Source: Desulfobacterales bacterium CG2_30_60_27 (lineage in GTDB: Bacteria; Desulfobacterota; Desulfobulbia; Desulfobulbales; CG2-30-60-27). From it: a stretch of DNA of 49,075 nt. A program made the translations under genes and the position numbers. Positions 29,127 through 34,789 of this stretch are shown here, piece after piece (position 1 is the stretch's first letter; every line of letters begins with the position of its first letter). The DNA is taken from assembly GCA_001873115.1 (NCBI GenBank), contig MNYK01000050.1, positions 1-49,075 on the forward strand, given 5' to 3'. Under the pieces are notes generated by a model. That model did not search any database and was not told the origin of the DNA. It saw only the letters and a list, made by a program, of their open reading frames with translations.

Positions 29127-29348
29127 ATGCCTTTCATGAAAAAAATCACCTCCAGCCTGCCCGAACTGAAGCTCAAGTGCTGCTTCTGTAACGGTGAAAG
29201 CCACATCCAGGGCCAGTGAAGCAACGCCCGGGTGGTTTGCACGGTGTGCAAACAAGAATCGCCGTTTGAGCGCTACCAGGCCCAGATGGATGAATGGCGG
29301 ACGGCCGTATGCCACTATCTGGCGGCCCCTCCCGACCACGACCACTAG
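29127..29348 (+). CDS. Candidate small selenoprotein (Cys-rich, CxxC...U...CxxC), in-frame TGA at 29217-29219
   Basis: MPFMKKITSSLPELKLKCCFCNGESHIQGQ(TGA)SNARVVCTVCKQESPFERYQAQMDEWRTAVCHYLAAPPDHDH*. Protein-like on both sides of the TGA; hairpin with GGU loop 23 nt after the TGA. Confidence 0.55.
29235..29253 (+). promoter_or_regulatory. Bacterial SECIS-like hairpin
   Basis: GTTTGCAC-GGT-GTGCAAAC: perfect 8-bp stem, GGU loop starting 24 nt after TGA 29217-29219. Confidence 0.55.
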
Positions 29349-31111: not shown

Positions 31112-31726
31112 CTATTCAGCAGCACCAAAGGCCGCGCTGATGGTCTTGGCGAGCTTCTCCTCAACCATGTCGGCCATGACCGCATCGTCCACCTTGGGCA
31201 CCTCCTTGCGGATGGCCTTGGTGACGTTGCCGAAGGAGACCCTGAGCTTCTGGCTGGAAACCAGATCAAGGGCCTTCTGGATGCGGACCTTGACCTCGTC
31301 AGGGGCTAGCCCTTCGGCCGCGCCCAAGGGGCCCAGTTCCTTTATGGTGTTGGTAAAATCGGTGATCAGCTTGACAAAGCGCGGCGCCTCGGCGGCCGAG
31401 GCCCACCTCAGATTAAACCGCTCCTCGCGGATGCCGGCCTCTTTAAGGACCCGGTGGACCAGCGCGTTCACTCCCATGGCGTCGTAATTACCAACCTGGT
31501 AATGGCATTCGCCGAGTTGTCAGCCACCGGTGAAGATGCCGGCCGCCCCCTCGGCAAAGCCGCGCAGAATGAAGGCCGGATCGAGGCGGCCGGTGCACAT
31601 GATCCGGATGGTCCGCAGGTTGGGCGGATACTGGTAGCGCGACACCCCGGCCGAGTCGGCGGCGGCGTAGCAGCACCAGTTGCAGAGAAACCCCAAGATT
31701 TTTGGGGAGAACGCTTCCTTGCTCAT
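31112..31726 (-). CDS. mvhD: MvhD-like (methyl-viologen-reducing hydrogenase delta / HdrA partner) protein, selenocysteine-containing
   Basis: LGFLCNWCCYAAADSAGVSRYQYPPNLRTIRIMCTGRLDPAFILRGFAEGAAGIFTGG-(TGA)-QLGECHYQVGNYDAMGVNALV...; the track splits it at TGA 31520-31522. SECIS-like hairpin at 31487-31503. Confidence 0.92.
31487..31503 (-). promoter_or_regulatory. SECIS-like hairpin in mvhD
   Basis: Minus strand ATTACCA-GGT-TGGTAAT: perfect 7-bp stem, GGU loop starting 24 nt after the TGA. Confidence 0.8.
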
Positions 31727-31729
31727 TGT

Positions 31730-34700
31730 CTACTCCTTGTCAATAGCACCAAAAGCCTGAATCTGGGCATTAATCTGTTCATTGGTAAAGCCACCCATGG
31801 AGATGGCAAAGGTCGGGCAATGCGCGGCGCAGATGCCGCAGGCCTTGCACGAGGCGGCAATGGTCTCGGCCTTGCGCTTGTTGTCTACTTTCAGCATCTG
31901 GATGGCCTGGAAAGGGCAAAGGCTGGCGCAGATACCGCAGCCGATGCAGGTATCCTGATCCACATGGGAGACGATAGGTTCCACCTCCACCTTGCCCCGC
32001 ACCAGAGGCATGGCCGCCTTGGCCGCCGCGGCCTGGGCCTGGACGATAATCTCCTCCAGGGGCTTCGGGGCGTGGGCCAGTCCGGCCAGGAAGATGCCGG
32101 CCACCGGCAGTTCAACCGGCCGCAGCTTGGCATGGGCCTCCAGAAAGAACTTATCGGCGTTGACCGGAATCTTCAACAGCTTGGAGAGCTCGTCCGTACT
32201 CTCCGGCACCAGGCCGACGCTAAGGACCAGCAGTTCCGGGGCCAGTTCCACCGCTTCGCGAAGAATCGGGTCATGGTAGGAGACCTTGACGCCCTTGCCC
32301 TTGGCAGCGAGCACCGGCTTGTTGTCCATGGTGTAGGGGACAAAGAGCACCCCCTTTTCCCGCGCCTGACGGTAGGCGTCCTCGGCATAGCCGTAGGTCC
32401 GCATCTCCCGATAGAGCACGATCACCTGGGAGGCGGGATTGATCTCCTTGATCTTCAGCGCGTTCTTCACCGCCTCGTTGCAGCAGATCTTGCTGCAATA
32501 GGCCAGATCATCGCCACGTGAACCAGCGCACTGAATCATGACCACCGAGCCCGGGGCGCGGTTCTTGGCCTTGCCGGCCAGTTGCGCCTCCAGCTCCTGC
32601 TGGGTGACGATCCGGTCGGACTTGGGCAGTTCAACACCCAGCACCTTGGCCGGGCGGTGTGGCCGACCGCCGGTGGCCACCAGGATGACGCCGTGGTCAA
32701 TGGTGTGTTCGACCATCTTCTTGCCCTTGGTCTCTTGCACGACGCTGGCAAAGTTGCCGACAAAGCCTTCGGTGGCAAGCAGTGCAGCGTTGGTTAGCAC
32801 GTCGATCAGCTTGTTCTTCTTCACCTTGTCTACCAGGTTTTTCAGGAAGCCCGGCACATCGTCGCCCGGCAGGTTGTAATGCGCCTGCCGCAGCATGCCG
32901 CCCAGTAGATCCTGGCGTTCAACGATGGTGCATGGAAAGCCTTGGTCGGCCAGGGTTAGGGCGGCCGTCATGCCGGCCACGCCGCCGCCGATGATCAGGG
33001 CGCTCTTGTTAACCGGCACGGTTTGTTCGGGCAGGGGCTGGATGAGCCGGGCCTTGGCCACCCCCATGCGCACCAGATCCATGGACTTTTGGGTGGCGGC
33101 CTCGGGCTCGTTGGCATGCACCCACGAGCAGTGATCGCGGATGTTGACCATCTCGAAGAGGCTGCGGTTGAGACCGGCGTCCTTCAGGGTTTCCTGGAAA
33201 AGGGGCTCATGGGTGCGGGGCGAACAGGCCGCGATCACCACCCGGTTCAGCTTATGCTCCTTGATCTTTTCCTTGATGGTCTCCTGGGCGTCCTGGGAGC
33301 AGGAGTACATGGAGTCGTTGAAGTAGACCACATTCTCCATCTGACCGGCATAGTCGGTGACCTTGTGGACGTCGACCACGCCGCTGATGTTGATGCCGCA
33401 ATGGCAGATCCAGACGCCGATCCGGGGCGCCTCGGCATCCGCCGTTTTTTCCGTAGGATAGGACTTGAGAATAACTCCGGTGCCCCGCTGGGTTTTCAGC
33501 CGGCCGGTGGCTATACCGGCCGCGGCCGCGGCCTGGGTGACTGACTCCGGGATATCCTTGGGACCCTGAAAGGCGCCGGCCACATAAACACCGGGGCTGG
33601 AACTCTCCAAGGGCGCAAAGGTGCTGGTCCTGCAGAAATCGTAGCGGTTCAGCGCAAAGCCGCCGATGGCGGCCAGCTTGCCGGCATCGGTCGGGGCATC
33701 GAGGCCCACGGAGAGCACCACCATATCGTAGCCCGTGAAGCCATGGCTGCCGTCCATGGTGGCATAGGTAAGTTTCAGCCCCTGGTCCCAAGACGTGACG
33801 GCGGCCACCTTGGCACGCACGAAGCGGATGCCGGAATGCTCCTCGGCCCGCTTCCGGGCCGCGTCGAAATCCTTGCCCTGGGTGCGCATGTCCATGTAGT
33901 AGATGGTAATCTCGCACTCGGGGTCATGCTCCTTGGCCACCATCGCCTCTTTGAGGGCATACATGCAGCACACCGAGGAGCAGTAGCCATTGTCGCAGCC
34001 GAGGTCACGCGAGCCCACGCACTGGATGAAAGCGATCCGGTGGGGATGCCGCTGGTCGGAGATGCAGCGCACCTCGCCCTTGAAGGGGCCGGACGGATTG
34101 AGCAGCCGCTCGAACTCAATGCTGGTCACCACGTCGGGGTGCTGGCCATAGCCGTATCTGGTAAGGGCCGCCTCGGGTACCCGGCCAAAGCCCGGGGCCA
34201 TGATCACGGCGCCGACCGCGAGCTTGCGTTCCGTTGGCTGCTGGGAGAAGTCAATAGCCCGGCTGCGACAGACCGGCACGCAGATCTGACAGGTGCCGTG
34301 CTGGAGAAACAGGCAGGCCGAAGGGTCGATGTAGTAGGTGGCCGGCACGGCCTGAGGGTAATCGATGTGGATAGGCCGGGTAATACCCAACCCCTCGTTG
34401 TAGCCGTCCACCATATGTCTGGGGCAGTATTTTGTACACAGGCCGCAGGCCGTGCAGGCCTCGGCGTCTATGTAACGGGGCCGCACCCGCACCGTGGCGG
34501 TAAAATTCCCGGGTTTACCATCCAAAGACAGCAGATCGGCGTTGCTGACTATCTCAATATTGGGAGACCGACCGGCCTCGACCAACTTTGGCGCCAGGAT
34601 TCAGAGGGCACAGTCGTTGGTTGGAAAGGTCTTGTCGAGCTGCGCCATGGCGCCGCCGATCGCCGCCGACTTTTCCACCAGGTAAACGTAAAACCCCAGT

Positions 34701-34789
34701 TCGGTCAGGTCAAGGGCGGTCTGGACGCCGGCCACCCCGCCGCCGACCACCATGACTGCCCCGGTTTTTTTGTCTTGTGCTTTCGCCAT
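31730..34789 (-). CDS. hdrA: HdrA-like flavoprotein, tandem (two HdrA-like modules), selenocysteine-containing
   Basis: [52 protein letters not shown]-(TGA)[18 protein letters not shown]...; second module [31 protein letters not shown]; multiple 4Fe-4S motifs. TGA at 34601-34603. Confidence 0.93.
34564..34579 (-). promoter_or_regulatory. SECIS-like hairpin in hdrA
   Basis: Minus strand GAGGCC-GGTC-GGTCTC: 6-bp stem (one G-U), loop containing GGU starting 28 nt after the TGA. Confidence 0.6.

Follow-up and report, generated by a model that had tools for sequence, protein, structure and literature searches.

The frame at positions 29127–29348 raises the question of whether a TGA codon lying within a small gene is a stop or directs the insertion of selenocysteine (Sec) and, in the latter case, which family of proteins the gene belongs to. 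The window, i.e. the whole 49,075-nt stretch of DNA that was analysed, had been preliminarily described as containing, between nuoN and ilvC, a 73-codon frame with an in-frame TGA that was missing from the ORF track. The sequence reads exactly as claimed, the gene is indeed overlooked by ordinary ORF calling, and the location between nuoN and ilvC is seen in the genus of the window. The comparisons presented below lead us to conclude that 29127–29348 is a real selenoprotein gene that ordinary ORF calling overlooked. The relevant features of the window are as follows:

29127–29348, + strand: small selenoprotein frame of 73 codons followed by TAG (direct reading of the sequence)
29178–29189, + strand: first CxxC knuckle, with Cys18 and Cys21 (invariant in alignments A1, A2 and A5)
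29217–29219, + strand: TGA, predicted Sec codon for residue 31, in a GQU context (of 92 GxU/GxC domains, 90 have TGA here and 2 have TGC)
29235–29253, + strand: SECIS-like hairpin GTTTGCAC-GGT-GTGCAAAC, with its loop at 29243–29245 (peak in z, covariation, and a GGT spacing like that of mvhD)
29238–29249, + strand: second CxxC knuckle, with Cys38 and Cys41, overlapping the SECIS-like hairpin (invariant in A1, A2 and A5)
31112–31726, − strand: mvhD-type selenoprotein gene, GGUQ, with TGA at 31522–31520 (matches the VhuD/HdrA2 C-terminal models)
31730–34789, − strand: hdrA-type selenoprotein gene, CALU, with TGA at 34603–34601 (HdrA2 model, 957.6 bits, under the cut-off of 1100)

The frame ends with a TAG stop codon at 29346–29348 and starts either at ATG 29127 or at the in-frame ATG 29136; this start is uncertain because ATG 29127 is not preceded by a clear ribosome binding site. 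A frame with 79 % identity, and with a TGA at the matching place, occurs in a genome of the same genus (G001, locus L002). Within this genus, dN/dS is about 0.19 before the TGA and about 0.33 after it.

The identity of the codon in more distant relatives was then informative. In a sample of the order, 33 of 58 genomes contained a match, and 27 of the 30 loci fetched had one TGA at the equivalent codon, the other three being stop-free paralogs of the RxC type. Matches were found in 97 of 258 genomes sampled from the class, nearly all the strong ones with exactly one TGA, and in the phylum sample the TGA was at the equivalent codon in 52 of the 54 matching genomes. Pooling the 92 distinct domains of the clade, the codon was TGA in 90 and TGC, for Cys, in two, with neither Trp nor any other residue, and the Sec forms come from one phylum, in which they span at least 26 families. 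Both Cys orthologs (L069 and L070, from genomes G431 and G092) belong to a single genus of family f50, which retains tRNA-Sec, so that Sec and Cys were exchanged without loss of the machinery. The window protein has the layout CxxC-x9-(U/C)-x6-CxxC, and the columns C18, C21, C31, C38 and C41 of this CxxC...U...CxxC arrangement are invariant among the homologs, in agreement with the selenoprotein of zinc-ribbon-like appearance first proposed. A Gly two residues before the Sec or Cys is present throughout the clade of the window gene, the x of GxU being R, K, T, N, Q or C, and Tyr50 and Trp57 are nearly invariant across the phylum. One further match (G530:C56:41549-41692) contains one TGA, two TAG and one TAA, and is perhaps a decayed copy.

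The preliminary description also reported, downstream of the TGA, a perfect 8-bp hairpin whose GGT loop begins after 23 nt, with the same loop and spacing as in mvhD. All of this is borne out by the sequence: the hairpin is at 29235–29253 and that of mvhD is ATTACCA-GGT-TGGTAAT, with its GGT likewise after 23 nt. In 61 non-redundant Sec genes, we re-dealt synonymous codons according to local codon usage and folded each gene in windows of 22 nt; stability exceeded the synonymous expectation at +15 to +36 (mean z = −2.00 ± 0.14; a pooled p from such shuffles is not to be taken literally, since related sequences are not independent). The strong departure was limited to around +15 to +39, being weak or near zero elsewhere, and the value at +15 to +36 for five Cys forms was z = −0.04 ± 0.09. 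Covariation was examined in the 33 genes with an 8-bp/GGN hairpin, in which 92 % of the cells pair; there were 18 double-change cells versus 3.5 in shuffled data (0/500), and the covariation score was 0.301 versus at most 0.111 with the partners slid. Additionally, the codon after the third Cys, situated in the loop, is locked, with Thr encoded by ACG in 29/29 cases and Lys by AAG in 10/10. In the TGA-bearing relatives, then, the hairpin is conserved beyond what synonymous codon choice predicts, and it covaries. For the window gene alone, the 45-nt fold did not differ significantly from that of its synonymous shuffles (p = 0.07), and the evidence for a SECIS-like hairpin is comparative, coming from the family and not from this gene by itself. 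A separate lineage, comprising families f42 and f78 (loci L082, L091, L093, L095, L096, L063, L065, L067, L088 and L089), has another hairpin design, e.g. GGTAAG-GTGT-CTTACC or GGTGAG-GTGT-CTCACC, which also covaries, so that the SECIS was rebuilt under a changing protein sequence.

The main alternative initially considered, a Trp TGG to TGA nonsense mutation or a sequencing error in an ordinary gene, with the hairpin as a by-product of the VCTVC codons, would fit the non-significant fold of the window gene but fails, with a negligible probability, because homologous domains have TGA at the equivalent codon in 90 of 92 cases and Trp in none, and because the hairpin of the family exceeds the synonymous expectation and covaries. 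Scarcely more credible is the synthesis of only a 30-residue peptide, the downstream frame being either a separate gene or no coding sequence at all. A TGA read in the usual way would have this result, but the codons that follow it show conservation at the protein level, as seen from the dN/dS of about 0.33 within the genus and the invariant CxxC, and from the near invariance of Tyr50 and Trp57, both downstream of the TGA, across the phylum. The insertion of Sec at residue 31 is, as a prediction from these comparisons, strongly supported.

The genome possesses the machinery for this insertion, with a tRNA-Sec (74.6 bits, above the Rfam cut-off) and a SelB (347.5 bits, above the NCBI cut-off). 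The use of Sec by the host had been deduced from hdrA and mvhD, of which mvhD served as the yardstick for Sec decoding in this host. A tRNA-Sec was found in 45/45 genomes of the phylum tested, whether the small gene was present or absent, so it permits Sec decoding and is uninformative as a discriminator. The HdrA and MvhD of the window are selenoproteins of well-known, classical kinds; their genes, with one in-frame TGA each, are truncated by ordinary ORF calling and adjoin a Wood-Ljungdahl cluster, with genes for a molybdopterin oxidoreductase, CdhD, acetyl-CoA synthase, an MTHFR fusion, CODH and FolD. Two related genomes contain a second tRNA-Sec-like gene (62 bits, above the Rfam cut-off; G032:C55:34315-34413 and G023:C158:64796-64894). 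In the small gene, SelB and tRNA-Sec would insert Sec at residue 31, guided by the hairpin, which begins 15 nt downstream of the UGA.

The only relevant match of the window protein was to NCBIfam NF041197, "dual CXXC motif small (seleno)protein", with 31.8 bits for a cut-off of 40; strict membership by the curated model thus fails. Searches of Pfam, PDB sequences, Foldseek, Rfam and plasmids gave no informative match. All the relatives tested (29/29) match NF041197, the clade of the window (GxU) scoring 31–42 bits versus 64–75 bits for the paralogs of the KRSC..IIYD and RRU..RCDRI types. In a tree with few columns and long branches, the GxU and RxU/RxC clades separate with a support of 100/98, and the GxU group would be the sister of the RxU/RxC group that dominates NF041197. 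Both kinds can coexist in one genome (e.g. G001, G003 and G277). In G277 (L077, near 1233 and 4803), an RRU Sec paralog (64.3 bits with NF041197) is about 3.5 kb from a GxU Sec gene on one contig.

Table 1 of a 2026 review (PMC13188914) places exactly two selenoproteins under NF041197: OS_HP3 (RxU), which stems from work on the Olavius symbiont, and "hypothetical protein DW" (GxU), from deep-Sep in 2025. The deep-Sep paper (PMC12013277) reports DW for Desulfosarcina sp. BuS5 and D. widdelii PP31, and describes a SECIS-like structure as well as homologs carrying TGA or Cys. The window protein shares with OS_HP3 and the core of NF041197 the small size and the CxxC – Sec/Cys – CxxC order at equal spacing; however, that core is RxU/RxC, with a C-terminus of IIYD or RCDRI, and forms a separate clade, and the Arg two residues before Sec that is typical of OS_HP3 is a Gly in the window gene. 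This Gly in a small protein related to NF041197 is the trait of DW, with which, as far as the two published descriptions go, the window gene also shares a single Sec, its presence in Thermodesulfobacteriota, and the existence of TGA and Cys homologs, whereas it differs in being GQU instead of the usual GRU. With the match made by motif, family accession and host group or phylum, it is very likely that the window gene belongs to the DW family as so described. The idea that this was an unknown, new selenoprotein family is therefore abandoned: the gene is a missed and slightly divergent copy of an already predicted family. That it is instead distinct from every published family, DW being something else, is improbable. 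The score under the NF041197 cut-off, the 100/98 separation from the RxU/RxC clade and a resemblance to DW resting on descriptions are all compatible with a distinct family; against it, the table in the review puts DW under NF041197 with GxU (PMC13188914), deep-Sep obtained DW from Desulfosarcina (PMC12013277), and our clade is GxU, related to NF041197 and from the same phylum as DW.

The gene is widespread in sulfate-reducing bacteria. Scanning 84,980 species with a DNA pattern that includes the TGA identified 29 true members, nearly all labelled as Desulfobacterota or Deltaproteobacteria, one of them being a MAG labelled only as Pseudomonadota. Five further matches to the pattern had no profile support and were discarded as chance. 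The carriers include a cultured organism, Desulfacinum hydrothermale DSM 13146 (L132). There is no conserved operon, and synteny gives no support to any function, because the neighbours vary by lineage (ilvC, coaE, an ExbB-like protein, or DVU0298-TPR-dsrMKJOP). In some lineages (L078, L084, L136 and relatives), the gene is on the opposite strand, flanked by dsrP (from dsrMKJOP) on one side and by a TPR/DVU0298-family pair on the other. The pair next to the gene in L078, L084 and L136 has a CxxC motif at the N-terminus.

AlphaFold2 modelled 28 sequences as a small ribbon, with a mean pLDDT of 80.8 that reached about 90 over residues 21–50. In the model, strands 24–28 and 35–38 flank Sec31, which is in the turn between them, the CxxC pairs are at the other ends of the strands, and a helix spans residues 47–66. 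From this arrangement, Sec31 is probably not a metal ligand and would be away from the metal site. The product would most likely be a zinc ribbon in which Cys18, Cys21, Cys38 and Cys41 bind one metal ion, with Sec31 placed between the knuckles, at the beta-hairpin turn, followed by a C-terminal helix often with another Cys. Such a Cys, in or after the helix and 26–35 residues after the Sec, is present in 72 of the 92 domains and is a possible resolving partner. The zinc ribbons LysW, Elf1, RPC10 and Lar are similar in having two CxxC knuckles and a short beta-hairpin, with weak profile or fold matches, but none of the matches is significant (best Foldseek E-value, 0.12), and these proteins are not known to have Sec or Cys between the knuckles. 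Foldseek and the PDB sequence search found no clear relative among solved structures.

Functionally, the product would most likely take part in anaerobic sulfur metabolism, either as a small thiol/selenol redox protein or as a redox sensor, and its reactive residue would be Sec31. We infer this role from how Sec generally behaves and from the anaerobic nature of the lineages in which the gene occurs, and we give the mechanism as a whole, zinc ribbon and redox chemistry, about an even chance, much less than the certainty attached to the selenoprotein itself. The strongest competitor is that Sec acts as a metal ligand, or that the protein has a role in metal trafficking or sensing (Zn, Hg or Cu), in place of redox chemistry. 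We consider it unlikely: the five invariant thiol/selenol positions would suit metal binding, and the model of MbdU, a metal-binding double selenoprotein, weakly matches three members, but the predicted location of residue 31 in the hairpin turn is apparently away from the CxxC knuckles. Taken as a whole, the explanation that we favour with high confidence is that the gene encodes a small GxU-type selenoprotein (DW) with Sec31, likely to be a zinc-ribbon redox protein.

What is added here to the published predictions is a missed GQU member, the nearly exclusive use of Sec in one phylum (at least 26 families), the existence of two SECIS designs, and rare Cys orthologs. Since the clade scores below or around the NCBI cut-off and its frame is broken by the TGA, annotation probably misses or truncates many members, and a second profile model for the GxU clade would mend this gap. 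Tentatively, and with less than even confidence, the GxU clade could be a functionally separate, near-obligate selenoprotein family, with an unusual Sec between zinc knuckles and a job in anaerobic sulfur metabolism, which NF041197 lumps with a different paralog. Cys homologs are numerous in most selenoprotein families; in the phylum sampled, this one almost always has Sec rather than Cys, and is thus well suited to studying what Sec adds over Cys in a zinc-ribbon scaffold.
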